Below the pieces are notes generated by a model. The model was not told the origin of the DNA. It saw only the letters and a list, made by a program, of their open reading frames with translations, and did not search any database. Made by a program: the position numbers and the translations under genes. Below, in pieces: positions 58,958 through 64,000 of a DNA stretch of 64,000 bases (positions are counted from its first letter, which is position 1; each line of letters begins with the position of its first letter). Source of the stretch: Methylosinus sporium (GTDB lineage: Bacteria; Pseudomonadota; Alphaproteobacteria; Rhizobiales; Beijerinckiaceae). The stretch is taken from contig NZ_PUIV01000014.1 in the NCBI RefSeq assembly GCF_003113265.1, positions 1 through 64,000 of the forward strand, given 5' to 3'.

Positions 58958-60437
58958 GGCGGGGCGGAGCGGCGCGCGTGTCGCCGCGCTCGCGGCTTCG
59001 CTGGCTTTCGGTCTTTCCGGCTGCGCCCAGCTCGAGCGGCAGGGCGAAATGCTCAATGGCGGAGCCGCGTCGCAAGCGCGATTGCCGCCGGCCGTGCCGC
59101 GCACCGTCGGCGGCGAGCAGCCCTCGACTGCCGAGCACAAGGATCTCGTCGCGCAATTCGGCGGCGAATATCGCTTTTTGTCGGCCGAGCGCTATCTCGA
59201 CGAGATTTTGGTCAAGCTCGCGCAGGCGAGCGACACGCCGGGCCAGGCCGCCTATAAGGTGACGATCCTCAACACGCCGGTGGTGAACGCTTTTGCTCTG
59301 CCGAGCGGCAATCTCTATGTGACGCGCGGCCTTCTCGCCCTCGCCGGCGACGCCTCGGAGGCGGCCGCCGTGATGGCGCATGAGATCGCCCATGTGAGCG
59401 CGCGCCACAGCGCGCTTCGCGCCGAGCGCGAGCGTGAGGCGGAGGTCATCAGCCAGGCCGCGGCCGTCATTCAGAGCAAGCAGAAGAGCGACGACGTGCG
59501 CGCCTCGCAGCGTCTGTCGTTCGCGAGCTTCTCGCGCCTACAGGAGCTGGAGGCGGACGCGATCGGCGTGCGCGTGGTGGCGCGCGCCGGCTTCGATCCG
59601 TATGGCGCCTCGCGCTTTCTCGCGGCGCTCGGCAAATCCGCGGAGCTGCGCGCCGTGCTGTACGGCAAGAAGAAAGCGCCCGACCTCGACATATTGGCGA
59701 CGCATCCCTCGACGCCCGATCGCATCGCCAAGGCGGTGGCGGCGGCGCGGCAGATCAGCGCCCCCGGCGTCGGAACGCGTGATCGCGAGGGCTATCTCGC
59801 CGCGATCAACGGCCTCGCTTATGGCGACGATCCCAATGACGGCTTCGTGCGCGGCCGCAAATTCGCGCATCCGCGGCTGCGCTTCACCTTCGTCGCGCCG
59901 GAAGGCTTTCTGCTCGAGAATTCGAGCGAGGCCGTCTTCGGCGTGAAGGAGGGCGACGACGAGGCGCTGCGGCTCGATCGCGTACGCGCGCCGGTCGGCA
60001 AGACGATCGAAGCCTATGTCGAATCCGGCTGGGTCGACGGGCTGTTGCGCTCGTCGATGAAGCGCATCGACGTCAACGGATTGCCGGCGGTGGTCGCCAG
60101 CGCGCGCGCCGGTGAATGGAATTTCAAGCTCGCGGTCATTCAGATCGACGATGAATTCTATCGGCTGATTTTCGCCGTGCGCGCGCTCGACGCGGAGGCG
60201 GAGCGACGTTTCGCCGCTTCCGTCGCCACATTCCGACGCTCGAGCTGGGAAGAGTCGCTCGATGTGCGCCCGCTGCGTCTCTCCATCGTGAGCGCGGGCG
60301 CAGAGGACACTGCGGAATCCATGGCGCAGCGCATGGTCGTTCCCAATCGTCCGCTCGAATATTTCCAATTGCTGAACGGCCTCGAGCATGGTGGCCGTCT
60401 CACGCCGGGCGAGAGATATAAGCTCGTCGTCGAGTGA
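58863..60437 (+). CDS. M48-family metalloprotease lipoprotein
   Basis: A protein of up to 524 residues. A basic N terminus is followed by VAALAASLAFGLSGCAQL, a lipobox with Cys near 54. The protease domain has the zinc motif VMAHEIAHVSARHS (about 178-190) and a downstream Glu in LQELEADAIGVRV, then HPSTPDRIAKAV. The C-terminal 200 residues are an extra domain common to alphaproteobacterial forms (related to BepA/LoiP), ending with a LysM-like LNGLEHGGRLTPGERYKLVV. The start is uncertain: only TTGs at 58863 and 58875 lie before the lipobox, both inside the nuclease-like gene. Confidence 0.87.
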   Translation: MTQLLDRAWSFSLRRRSSSSATNAPARSAGPEAGRSGARVAALAASLAFGLSGCAQLERQGEMLNGGAASQARLPPAVPRTVGGEQPSTAEHKDLVAQFGGEYRFLSAERYLDEILVKLAQASDTPGQAAYKVTILNTPVVNAFALPSGNLYVTRGLLALAGDASEAAAVMAHEIAHVSARHSALRAEREREAEVISQAAAVIQSKQKSDDVRASQRLSFASFSRLQELEADAIGVRVVARAGFDPYGASRFLAALGKSAELRAVLYGKKKAPDLDILATHPSTPDRIAKAVAAARQISAPGVGTRDREGYLAAINGLAYGDDPNDGFVRGRKFAHPRLRFTFVAPEGFLLENSSEAVFGVKEGDDEALRLDRVRAPVGKTIEAYVESGWVDGLLRSSMKRIDVNGLPAVVASARAGEWNFKLAVIQIDDEFYRLIFAVRALDAEAERRFAASVATFRRSSWEESLDVRPLRLSIVSAGAEDTAESMAQRMVVPNRPLEYFQLLNGLEHGGRLTPGERYKLVVE

Positions 60438-60594
60438 GAAACGCGCGTCCGCGATGGAACCGTCGCGCTTCGAAAATGTTGTAAGCCTTAGAATTCCCGG
60501 GGGGGCGGACAGGCAGGGCGCCGATCGCGCAGCCGCCGGTCGCGTGACCGTCTGGGAGTTCTCCTCAATCGAGGCATCGTCGCAGCGCTTCTCA

Positions 60595-60616
60595 TTCGAT
60601 CGATCTTTCGATCGAA
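60595..60616 (+). other. Hairpin in the rpoH leader
   Basis: TTCGATCGA and TCGATCGAA form a nine-base perfect stem with loop TCTT, 38 bases before the rpoH ATG. It would form in the mRNA leader. It could influence translation with temperature, as in other rpoH leaders, but it does not pair with the ribosome binding site as drawn. Confidence 0.5.
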
Positions 60617-60654
60617 GCCTCGATCGCGCGCGACAGCCACCCCGGAGAGCGAGA

Positions 60655-61521
60655 ATGGCTTATTTGCCCGGAGTCGGACGCGAACTCGTGAAGGCGGCGA
60701 TGGATGCGCCCTTTCTAGAACGCGAAGAAGAAAAACGTCTGGCCATCGCGTGGAAGGACAATAAGGATACGGATGCTCTGGATAAGCTCGCCTCCGCTCA
60801 TATGCGGCTGGTGATCGCGCTCGCTGTGCGCTTCCGTCATTACGGGCTGCCCGTCGCCGATCTCGTGCAAGAAGGGCATGTCGGCCTGCTCGAGGCCGCC
60901 GCGCGTTTCGCGCCGGAGCGCGACGTGCGCTTCTCCACTTATGCGACCTGGTGGATTCGCGCGTCCATTCAGGATTATGTGCTGCGCAACTGGTCGATCG
61001 TGCGCGGCGGCACCAGCTCCTCGCAAAAGGCGCTATTCTTCAATCTTCGCCGGCTTCGCGCCAAGCTCGCACATGCGCCGCAGTCGGAAGCGGGCGACGC
61101 TTTCCAGGCCATCGCCGGCGCCATCGGCGTCTCGCGCGCCGATGTGGAGCTGATGAACTCGCGTCTCGCCGGCTCCGATGTCTCGCTCAACAGCCAATTG
61201 GTCGAGGACGATTCCTCGACATCGGCCGAGCGCATGGATTTTCTCGTCGACGATCGGCCGCTGCCCGACGAGGTGGTCGAGGATCGCGTCGATTCCGGGC
61301 GTCGCGCACGCTGGCTCGCCGATGCGTTGACGCTTCTGTCCGAGCGCGAGCTGCGCATCGTGCAGGAACGGCGGCTCAGCGAGACTCTCGTTACGTTGGA
61401 GTCGCTCGGCGATCGCCTCGGAATATCGAAGGAGCGCGTCCGCCAGATCGAGAATCGCGCATTGTGCAAGCTGCGCAAGGCGCTGACCAAAGCCCAGGAG
61501 ACGGCGACGCCGGCCGAATGA
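60655..61521 (+). CDS. rpoH: RNA polymerase sigma-32 factor
   Basis: A 288-residue heat-shock sigma factor. Region 2 contains HMRLVIALAVRFRHYGLPVADLVQEGHVGLLEAAARF and RFSTYATWWIRASIQDYVLRNW, the RpoH box is QKALFFNLRRLRAKL, and region 4 is LLSERELRIVQERRL, then LGISKERVRQIENRAL. The ATG at 60655 has GGAGAGCG before it; the longer frame upstream overlaps the protease gene. It drives chaperone and protease genes, probably including ftsH of this window. Confidence 0.97.
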   Translation: MAYLPGVGRELVKAAMDAPFLEREEEKRLAIAWKDNKDTDALDKLASAHMRLVIALAVRFRHYGLPVADLVQEGHVGLLEAAARFAPERDVRFSTYATWWIRASIQDYVLRNWSIVRGGTSSSQKALFFNLRRLRAKLAHAPQSEAGDAFQAIAGAIGVSRADVELMNSRLAGSDVSLNSQLVEDDSSTSAERMDFLVDDRPLPDEVVEDRVDSGRRARWLADALTLLSERELRIVQERRLSETLVTLESLGDRLGISKERVRQIENRALCKLRKALTKAQETATPAE

Positions 61522-61543: not shown

Positions 61544-61577
61544 AAAAAACGCGGCCCCGTTCGGGGCCGCGTTTTTT
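61544..61577. terminator. Bidirectional intrinsic terminator (rpoH/carD)
   Basis: AAAAAACGCGGCCCCG and its exact reverse complement, separated by two T bases, form a 16-bp palindrome with an A-run on the left and a T-run on the right. It lies between the convergent rpoH and carD genes and can stop both transcripts. Confidence 0.93.
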
Positions 61578-61604
61578 CTTTTGCGTTCGAGATTGCGCGC
61601 GATG

Positions 61605-63374
61605 TCAGGCGGCGCGCTCTTCCACGTCGTCCTCTTCGCCCTCTTCGCCGGCGTCGTCACTGGCGTCGGCGTCATCGCCGCCCTTGGGACCGCCGCGGCG
61701 CGGGCCCTTCTGCAGGAAGGATTCGATCAGCTTGAGCGATTCCGAATCGATGAGCTTGCGCACTGCTGCGACCTCGCGCGCCATGCGGTCGAGCGCCGCC
61801 TCATAGAGCTGACGCTCCGAATAGGACTGCTCCGGCTGCGTGTCGGACCGATAGAGGTCTCGCACCACCTCGGCGATGGTGACGAGATCGCCCGAATTGA
61901 TCTTGGCCTCATACTCCTGGGCGCGACGCGACCACATTGTGCGCTTGACGCGCGCGCGGCCGCTCAGCGTGGAGAGCGCCTTGTCGACGACCTCGTTCTC
62001 GGCCAGCTTGCGCATTCCCACGGCGGCGACCTTGCTGGTCGGCACCTTCAACGTCATCTTGTCCTTGATGAAGCTGACGACGAACAGCTCGAGGCTGAAG
62101 CCGGCCACTTCCTGCGTCTCGATCGCGATGATCTGTCCGACGCCATGCGCCGGATAGACGATGAATTCGTTCGTCTTGAACCCGAGCTTCTGCGCCGATG
62201 TCTTCGCCTTCGCGGCGGGCGTCGGCGGTTTGATGGGGGCCGCAGCCGCGGCGCGCGCGGCGACGATGGCCTTGGGCGAAAGGGCCGAGCTCGCCGCTGC
62301 GCTCGTGGGAGCGGCGGGGGCTCTGGGCGCCGGCGAAGATTTGGCGTTGACCGCCTTTCCTTGTGTCTGTTTTGGCACTGGAATGGTTTCGCTCGAAGCT
62401 GGAGTTGAAACGGCCGCCGTCGCATTCCCCCCGCTCGCGCCCGCATCGGGGGCGGCGCTCGGAGAGACGACGTCGGAGTGCTCGATATCGATATTGGTCG
62501 CGCTCTGGCGCAAGGGCGTGGTGATTCTCGTCTCCCCGGTTACGCCGGCCGCAACGGCGATTGAAGTCTGATGCGTCTGCGGAGCCTCCGAGGAGGTCTG
62601 CGGGCGGATGGTCTCGACACGCGTCGCTTCGACGCTCGGCGCGGTCTTTTGGGTCGCCTCGATCTCGATGCGGCGCTCCGTCGCGCACGCAACCTCGCCG
62701 CTGCGCTTGGCTTCGCTGCTGCGGGTGGCGCTGGCGCGCGCCCGCGCCGGCGCTTCGGCGACGGCGGCCTTGGCGACCGCGATCTTGGCGATGGCCGCCT
62801 TGGCGATGGTGGTCTTGGCCGAAGCCGCGGTCTTGGCGCTATTCTGGGTCACTTCGGCGGCGGTCTTGGCGCTTCGCGCCGCGATGGATTTCGCCGCTCC
62901 AGACCGAGCCGCGCTGGCTTTGGCGGCGGTCTTGGCGGCGGCGCGCGTCCGAGAGGAGGCGGTTTTCTGCGTTCTGGCGGAGCCGCGCTCGGCGCTCGCC
63001 GCCGAGCGACCCCCAGAAGACTTGCGGCCGGCCGAAGGCGCGGCTCCTGCGCCGACGCTCGTCCGCGCGGGTTTGGCGGCTGTCTTCCCCGCCGCGGCGG
63101 CTGTACGCGCGCTCGTTTTCGCGGTCTTGGCGGCCGCGGTCTTGGCGGAAACGCTCTTTCCCGAAGCCGTCTTTCCCGAAGCCGTCTTGCCCGAAGTAGT
63201 CTTGGTGGAAGCCGTGGTCTTCGACGTCTTGCCTGCGGCGGTCGCGCTAGCCGACCTTTGGGTCCGCGTCTCGGAAGCTGCGGCCGTCCGCGCCGTTTTG
63301 CCCTCAGCGCCGCGTCGCGCTCCGGCGACGGACGCCTTGCGATTCTTTGCGGTCTTCTTGCTGGACGAGGGCAT
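61605..63374 (-). CDS. carD: CarD-family regulator with long histone H1-like N-terminal tail
   Basis: A 589-residue protein. Residues about 398-565 are a normal alphaproteobacterial CarD: the Tudor-like RNA-polymerase-binding part (FKTNEFIVYPAHGVGQII, FSLELFVVSFIKDKMTLKVP) and the helical DNA-binding part (SRRAQEYEAKINSGDLV, LYEAALDRMAREVAAVRKL). Before it lie about 397 residues of low-complexity Lys, Ala, Thr, Ser and Arg, full of KTA/AKTA units like histone H1 tails. The C terminus is acidic (DDAGEEGEEDDVEE). The ATG at 63374 has GAAGGAG correctly spaced upstream, supporting the long form. CarD stabilises open promoter complexes; the tail probably binds DNA. Confidence 0.9.
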   Translation of the reverse strand: MPSSSKKTAKNRKASVAGARRGAEGKTARTAAASETRTQRSASATAAGKTSKTTASTKTTSGKTASGKTASGKSVSAKTAAAKTAKTSARTAAAAGKTAAKPARTSVGAGAAPSAGRKSSGGRSAASAERGSARTQKTASSRTRAAAKTAAKASAARSGAAKSIAARSAKTAAEVTQNSAKTAASAKTTIAKAAIAKIAVAKAAVAEAPARARASATRSSEAKRSGEVACATERRIEIEATQKTAPSVEATRVETIRPQTSSEAPQTHQTSIAVAAGVTGETRITTPLRQSATNIDIEHSDVVSPSAAPDAGASGGNATAAVSTPASSETIPVPKQTQGKAVNAKSSPAPRAPAAPTSAAASSALSPKAIVAARAAAAAPIKPPTPAAKAKTSAQKLGFKTNEFIVYPAHGVGQIIAIETQEVAGFSLELFVVSFIKDKMTLKVPTSKVAAVGMRKLAENEVVDKALSTLSGRARVKRTMWSRRAQEYEAKINSGDLVTIAEVVRDLYRSDTQPEQSYSERQLYEAALDRMAREVAAVRKLIDSESLKLIESFLQKGPRRGGPKGGDDADASDDAGEEGEEDDVEERAA

Positions 63375-63390
63375 ACGCGGATACTCCTTC

Positions 63391-63767
63391 TATTGTCCCG
63401 CTGTGGAGACGGGACGAAGCCTCGTGACCGAAGGGGCTCATTGCGCCCCGGCCAGGATAGCGCCAATGATCGCGCATGGTTCGGCTGGCGAAAGTCCGAC
63501 GCTTCACAATATAGAGCCGACGCTGGCGGGCGCATCGCCGCCATCTTTGCCCATTCTCGACGTCGCGGGTTTATCTCCGATCGGGGCGCCGCGACGTTCG
63601 AGCCCTGCGCGCCCGAAAGTTAAGTCTTAATGTTCTGTATATCATGTGGTACGGCAGAAATCAAAGGAAAGGCGTCGGCGCCTTTCCGCATGGTTACGAT
63701 CGGCCGGGGAGCAGCCGTTGAATCTCTTAACGATTTCGACGGCGCGGAGGTTGTGGACGGCGCGGCG
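63391..63767. other. No gene between fdxA and carD
   Basis: About 380 bases without a convincing gene; open frames here are extensions of antisense reading. It holds the fdxA terminator-like hairpin (63666-63687) and must contain the carD promoter. An AT-richer patch (GTTAAGTCTTAATGTTCTG, about 63617-63637) is a candidate promoter area. Confidence 0.45.
63666..63687 (-). terminator. Terminator-like hairpin after fdxA
   Basis: GGAAAGGCG and CGCCTTTCC form a nine-base stem with a four-base loop, about 80 bases after the fdxA stop. On the minus strand it is followed by the T-rich TTTGATTTC. A weak but plausible intrinsic terminator. Confidence 0.5.
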
Positions 63768-64000
63768 TCAGTCGCCTTCGCCGGGCTCGGGCGAGAAATG
63801 CGCCTCCAGCTTGCCGGGCTTGCCGTCCCATTCCTTGGCGTCGGCCGGCGGCTCGCGCTTGACCGTGACATTGGGCCAAGTCTGAGCGTATTCGGCGTTC
63901 AGCGCCATCCATTTCTCGAGGTCCGGCTCGGTGTCGGGCTTGATCGCCTCGGCCGGGCATTCGGGCTCGCACACGCCGCAGTCGATACATTCGTCCGGAT
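63768..64000 (-). CDS. fdxA: Ferredoxin FdxA (5' end outside window)
   Basis: The 77 visible C-terminal residues of a seven-iron ferredoxin. The window edge cuts within the first visible codons, [22 protein letters not shown], which holds the [4Fe-4S] Cys motif and the following Cys-Pro. The rest ([24 protein letters not shown]) is the usual C-terminal extension of the [3Fe-4S][4Fe-4S] FdxA of alphaproteobacteria. It carries electrons in the cytoplasm. fdxA and carD are neighbours in many relatives. Confidence 0.92.

Follow-up and report, generated by a model that had tools for sequence, protein, structure and literature searches.

The CdnL gene of Methylosinus sporium raises the question of why a housekeeping promoter factor carries a long basic segment ahead of its RNA polymerase (RNAP)-binding core, and whether that segment is a genuine part of the protein. 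The gene lies in the window, by which we mean the whole stretch of DNA that was analysed (64,000 nucleotides, positions 1 to 64,000 of contig NZ_PUIV01000014.1), and its minus-strand frame runs unbroken from the ATG at 63374 to the stop at 61605. The conserved core begins at L397, so that the tail comprises residues 1-396 (62187-63374). The part of PMC4374960 that deals with protein size gives 160-200 residues for CdnL, a range outside which the 589-residue window protein falls: its core makes it a CdnL, but its architecture is atypical. The statement in the earlier note that alphaproteobacterial CarD is usually short agrees with this range and with our survey, in which 60 of the 158 called loci have 9-13 residues before the core. 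The uninterrupted frame with its strong ribosome binding site, the complete CarD domain and the acidic tail behind it, which that note had also described, are all borne out (Table 1). Our preferred reading, to which we give a probability of roughly 60%, is that the gene encodes a housekeeping CdnL equipped with a disordered arm, made up of a basic block of ~215 residues and a neutral linker of ~180 residues, and that this arm contacts DNA. Comparison among relatives and structure prediction show an arm that is encoded, translated, conserved in charge and predicted to be disordered.

Table 1. Features of the CdnL gene and its product, with positions in the window.
Feature	Position	Strand	Basis
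CdnL/CarD gene with long N-terminal basic tail, complete, 589 aa	61605..63374	-	Open frame, Pfam
Ribosome binding site region	63375..63398	-	AAGGAG 9 nt before ATG
Basic K/A/T/S-rich block, residues 1-215, net +40, KTA units	62730..63374	-	Composition, repeats
A/P/S/T-rich linker, residues 216-396, nearly neutral, net +6	62187..62729	-	AlphaFold2 block means 40-49 pLDDT to residue 390
RNAP-interacting domain (CarD_TRCF_RID), residues 399-457	62004..62180	-	Pfam PF02559, E 1e-11
CarD_C domain, residues 465-550, invariant W481/R483/R484	61725..61982	-	Pfam PF21095, E 1.2e-22
Acidic end, residues 557-589, net -9, last residues Ala-Ala	61608..61706	-	Composition, end survey
Tandem repeats with a 15-bp period, coding for 5-residue (A)KTA/GKTAS units; candidate slippage site	63120..63215	-	Tandem Repeats Finder

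The gene is flanked on one side by a sigma-70 family gene (60388-61521, plus strand; regions 2 and 4 by Pfam), presumably RpoH-like, which is convergent with it. Between the two lies the palindrome AAAAAACGCGGCCCC-GTTC-GGGGCCGCGTTTTTT at 61544-61578, seen by eye and unlisted by the scan, which is probably a two-way terminator. Directly upstream, on the same strand as the CdnL gene, is a ferredoxin-type gene with a DUF3470 end (63768-64000, minus strand) that is cut by the window edge. The promoter scan returned no sigma-70-like promoter site.

The core identifies the protein. Both Pfam matches are above cut-off (PF02559, 45 bits; PF21095, 80 bits), solved CarD relatives align with it (2lwj, E 1.3e-24; 4kbm, E 6.5e-20), and W481, R483 and R484 are invariant in an alignment of 32 sequences. 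The AlphaFold2 model of the whole protein is of low confidence (mean pLDDT 51.5, pTM 0.28); in its core, strands and helices mostly reach pLDDT values of 70-89, and residues 441-480 form a weak patch. The sections of PMC5324124 that concern CdnL describe binding of the core to the β subunit of RNAP, the steadying of the open complex and a functional role for the Trp/Arg pair of the C-terminal domain; they also present alphaproteobacterial CdnL as highly conserved, with more than 90% coverage against the Caulobacter protein, in a section that mentions no extension. A search of the 3.79-Mb genome (completeness 100%) for PF02559 gave two matches, the CdnL gene and a 1178-residue frame that is taken to be Mfd, and we therefore regard this gene as the sole CdnL of the genome.

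As far as CdnL of Caulobacter crescentus and other alphaproteobacteria is described in the relevant parts of PMC5324124 and PMC11034885, the window protein shares with it the RID and CarD_C core and the Trp/Arg patch. It also shares the type of C-terminal Ala-Ala degron and the presumed housekeeping role, and it is present as a single copy in this genome. The difference lies in front of the core: theirs is a standalone protein, with a leader of ~10 residues in the short ones surveyed, whereas here a 396-residue basic disordered arm precedes the core. Ala-Ala terminates all 156 complete CdnL ends surveyed, the window's included (L089 and L139, from the same genome, account for the two of the 158 loci that lack a C-terminal end). 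According to the pertinent part of PMC11034885, ClpXP clears Caulobacter CdnL in starvation by means of the C-terminal Ala-Ala signal, and given the shared end, the long-tailed CdnL is probably turned over likewise.

The tail itself is uneven. Over its whole length it has a net charge of +46 and consists of 28% Ala, 13% Thr, 13% Ser, 9% Lys, 7% Arg and 6% Pro, with no aromatic residue among residues 1-396. Residues 1-215, however, contain 12.6% Lys and carry +40, against only +6 for residues 216-396. The tripeptide KTA occurs 12 times, whereas 2000 shuffled versions of the tail contain it 1.3 times on average and never more than 6 times. The basic low-complexity tail described in the earlier note thus stands as to its 396 residues and its KTA units, but it is strongly basic in its distal half alone. 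Its proposed likeness to histone H1 is partial: the net charge, the repeats and the predicted disorder agree with it, but with 9% lysine the tail is looser than those of some relatives, in which lysine reaches 23%. This share is also well below that of classical H1 tails. No AT-hook was found in the window's tail or in four other tails counted (0 RGRP, 0 GRP). Up to an E of 1, Pfam has no match within residues 1-398, and neither Pfam nor NCBIfam has a family name for the tail; the NCBIfam mfd model matches residues 362-472 with an E of 0.022, which is under its cut-off and mostly covers the shared RID. No second copy of the tail in the genome was listed at E up to 10 among the 150 of 435 first-look candidates that were scored. 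The tail is predicted to be disordered: in an AlphaFold2 run with 32 sequences, pLDDT block means stay at 39-49 throughout residues 1-390, and no secondary structure is placed before residue 404.

As far as we have seen, an arrangement comparable to this clade-wide, selected long basic arm on CdnL has been described only for a specialised myxobacterial relative. Among the matches listed in our literature search on tails or extensions of CdnL or CarD, and on CarD in these bacteria, none concerned a basic arm; most subscription journals lie outside the coverage of that search. In the portions of PMC9304148 and PMC4374960 that treat it, myxobacterial CarD likewise combines a CarD-type RNAP-binding core with a basic disordered K/A/P-rich segment, and an acidic segment is present in both proteins. 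The CarD tail is C-terminal (~140 residues in M. xanthus) and contains AT-hooks in most cases, whereas that of the window is N-terminal and lacks them; the remark in the earlier note that the Myxococcus tail sits at the opposite end is therefore correct. The C-terminus of the window protein is acidic, unlike the HMGA- or H1-like C-terminal domain of CarD, which the same portions describe as H1-like rather than HMGA-like in A. dehalogenans and V. incomptus. They further describe CarD as a dispensable global regulator that exists beside CdnL and works with CarG, whereas the arm described here sits on the sole CdnL. The genome contains no match to PF07998 (M54-type), the model that zinc-binding, metzincin-like CarG is assumed to fit. 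According to papers citing it, a study of 2009 concerned HMGA and H1-like domains as functional equivalents.

It should be noted how the literature delimits such proteins. Among the genomes analysed by the authors of PMC9304148, CarD with an HMGA or H1-like C-terminal domain is restricted to the Cystobacterineae. The relevant passages of PMC5324124 and PMC4374960 assign CarD with its own DNA-binding domain to myxobacteria only and state that CdnL probably reaches DNA via RNAP; a passage of PMC4374960 also reports that the HMGA domain of CarD can be replaced by other basic disordered domains. AlgP and PhaF of Pseudomonas likewise have a repeat-rich, K/A/P-containing, H1-like disordered tail, for which DNA binding is reported in the part of PMC9239181 concerned. 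Those tails are C-terminal, consist of KPAA units and are not joined to an initiation factor, whereas the window's is N-terminal on CdnL.

In the mechanism that we propose, the core would bind the β subunit of RNAP and stabilise the open promoter complex via the conserved tryptophan/arginine patch, as other CdnL proteins do, and the basic arm on its flexible linker would bind nearby DNA by charge, without sequence specificity. With this arm, CdnL would become locally more concentrated at promoters or on the nucleoid, and its stabilisation of the open complex would be supplemented by a DNA contact; the protein would be moderated and turned over by means of its acidic end and its Ala-Ala degron. 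We read the arm as a DNA grip because its charge is selected (see below) and because of the published replacement of the CarD HMGA domain. On these grounds DNA contact is the best reading of the tail; the DNA-condensing and nucleoid-binding roles put forward in the earlier note are putative.

The main rival to DNA contact, again by analogy, would be a role with polyphosphate like that of AlgP. In its broader form, the arm would mainly serve polyphosphate, RNA, RNAP itself or condensates, and would localise CdnL or buffer it in starvation. The H1-like AlgP is associated not only with DNA but also with polyphosphate granules (PMC9239181, in the part concerned), the charge of the tail is conserved more than its sequence, and the clearance of Caulobacter CdnL in starvation (PMC11034885, likewise) would fit a buffering function. 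The CdnL core, however, belongs to a factor that acts at promoters, and in the myxobacterial relative it is through DNA that the basic disordered domain works, according to the corresponding passage of PMC4374960; a main role with such other partners is therefore unlikely in our view.

A CdnL relative is present in 59 of 60 relatives, in 391 of 396 family genomes and in 293 of 297 order genomes; outside the order, open-frame lengths alone were listed, with starts uncalled. We examined 171 loci (L003-L173), of which five are cut by a contig end upstream and eight (L030, L064, L087, L093, L097, L098, L142 and L153) lack a callable start. The remaining 158, picked from best matches and by genus and hence an uneven sample, have 9-13 (60 loci), 26-51 (10), 69 (one), 114-137 (19) or 202-396 residues (68) before the core; the 68 long loci represent 63 distinct tails, five of which are counted twice because the genome concerned entered the set by two routes. 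The GTG starts of six tails of 38-40 residues and of 17 of the 19 with 114-137 residues were set by the motif V[ST]QK, and that of the 69-residue tail by the nearest GTG-like match to it, rather than by a Shine-Dalgarno (SD) sequence. Long tails were found at all ten genus loci and at all 20 callable loci among the 22 fetched from the sister genus, further genomes of which were surveyed by open frames alone, one of them being without a match. The architecture search proposed in the earlier note thus reveals a clade-wide feature instead of a peculiarity of one genome, and the length is variable as that note expected, ranging from 295 to 396 residues between species of the genus.

The long tails have a mean net charge of +46.5 (range -1 to +66), and 67 of the 68 are more basic distally than in the half next to the core. 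Weakly charged or neutral exceptions are L160 (+9) and L018 (-1). The latter belongs with L153 to a genus (g4) in which the tail is long but neutral and rich in D/E; its basic character may have been lost, or the start may be different. In Bradyrhizobium, Nitrobacter and similar loci (L060-L110), tails of 114-137 residues start at GTG (VSQK) and mostly end in TQR; the 19 mid-length tails contain on average 20% Lys and are more H1-like than the window's. L171 (G180:C43) shows a 1089-codon open frame in the genome search against a 251-codon CdnL frame from stop to stop. The closest named relative among the 80 kept from the contig search, from which the records nearest the window may be omitted, is Methylocystis suflitae (87%), and the genome contains a PF02461 (pmoA/amoA type) gene, which together suggest a methanotroph belonging to the Methylosinus/Methylocystis group.

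On a tree of the core (146 rows, duplicate and short domains removed), nearly all long tails fall within one Beijerinckiaceae-centred clade. This clade of 70 rows (support 91/85) holds 59 of the 61 long-tail rows, together with shorter tails, eight measuring 38-48 residues and three 69-127, and includes zero leaders of 9-13 residues. The other two long rows, L029 and L089, are outside it on long branches, and their placing is unsure. The character 'long' requires seven changes on this tree, whose many open forks and short domain make the number of gains unsure.

An open frame is weak evidence in GC-rich DNA, where a 350-residue antisense frame is open too, and we therefore relied on comparative tests. 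For the charge test, 24 of 30 tails from two genera were arranged into 12 disjoint species pairs within the similarity range, each aligned as DNA with the frame ignored. Of the 82 gaps in the tail, 70 have lengths that are multiples of three (mod 3 = 70:7:5), and codon phase is kept by 10572 of 10757 aligned tail bases. Charge-changing replacements number 71 among 418 single-base amino-acid replacements, compared with 138.5 expected under the simple mutation model on which the test rests (P 9e-14). The ratio of observed to expected is 0.51 in the true frame, versus 1.03 and 1.13 in the other sense frames; the three reverse frames give 1.13, 0.87 and 1.07, so that none shows significant charge constraint, the depletion at 0.87 being slight (P 0.066). 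An alignment artefact was rejected as the source of the signal by repeating a protein-guided test of overlapping pairs on the DNA-aligned disjoint pairs. Nine of the ten genus members have a net charge of +42 to +50 at tail lengths of 300-396 residues, and the tenth has +62 at 295; charge climbs weakly with length (Spearman 0.35), so that buffering is imperfect. Frame breaks in close relatives, raised in the earlier note as evidence against a long protein, were sought, and the 11 nearest loci all show an uninterrupted frame. These comparisons indicate that the tail is very probably read as protein, with its charge under selection and its sequence loosely held.

On the opposite strand, the 350-residue frame (62571-63623, plus strand) overlaps the tail and is probably a by-product of GC-rich codons. 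Coding there was rejected: plus-strand frames over the tail have stops in most of the nine loci counted, one reverse frame being open in two of the nine.

Slippage in GC-rich repeat DNA could also have produced the tail as a nearly neutral by-product, tolerated as disordered and soluble. Its 15-bp repeats, the large changes in length between species and a dN/dS that over nine pairs is 0.15-0.95 in the tail versus 0-0.08 in the core are consistent with such an origin. That charge-changing replacements are halved in the true frame only, that the basic-distal layout recurs in all but one of the long tails, and that reversion to a 9-13-residue leader is absent among the rows of the 70-row clade nevertheless make a merely tolerated tail quite improbable.

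The annotated start of the 589-residue protein appears sound. The ten genus loci have similar N-termini with KK after a conserved SD and ATG, the SD being AAGGAG or longer at eight of them and AGGAG or GGAG at one each. Between the ATG and the core, the window's frame contains only three further possible starts, a GTG, a TTG and a GTG that precede the core by 222, 109 and 64 residues, respectively, and have SD matches of 3 nt only; from the last of these to residue 423, inside the core, it contains no ATG, GTG or TTG. Initiation near the CarD domain, the other objection named in the earlier note, was looked for, and a wrong start was rejected, since start codons are absent near the core. Weak-SD ATG or GTG codons inside the tail of some relatives may serve as minor starts, but with the nearest candidate of the window so far upstream and so poorly preceded, and with the upstream SD and ATG conserved across the genus, it is highly improbable that the start is misannotated or that a second, internal start yields mostly an ordinary short CdnL.

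The ends of the tail suggest how it arose. Short CdnL proteins begin with MTTAKKTAQR or similar, with KK at residues 3-9 in 60 of 60 and K/R immediately before the core in 59 of 60. Of the 68 long tails, 55 have KK at residues 3-9, where 3.4 would be expected, and 63 have K/R as the last residue before the core (13.8 expected); 18 of the 19 mid-length tails end in TQR. Growth of the tail within an ancestral leader, MxxxKKTAQR, is the simplest reading; this leader would now be split between the two ends of the tail, and the growth was probably by repeat expansion inside it. The ~120-residue tails of Bradyrhizobium, Nitrobacter and their kin form a starred clade of 14 within a clade whose other ten members are short, and because of this nesting a second gain is likely. 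We put forward only tentatively the further view that in two alphaproteobacterial lineages the expansion of leader repeats turned the sole CdnL into both a promoter factor and a nucleoid-binding protein, a convergent and inverted counterpart of myxobacterial CarD.

If that view is true, open-complex stability and DNA packaging would be coupled via one proteolysis-controlled protein. A basic arm shared across a clade, and borne by the sole CdnL of a methanotroph and its relatives, is contrary in spirit to the statement that DNA-binding CarD is confined to myxobacteria. The statement that CdnL reaches DNA via RNAP becomes testable, since leaders of ~10, 40, 120 and 200-400 residues form a natural series in which to ask how an affinity of CdnL itself for DNA would contribute to stabilising the open complex. 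Finally, the split leader illustrates clearly how a disordered arm under charge selection has seemingly grown by in-frame repeat expansion.
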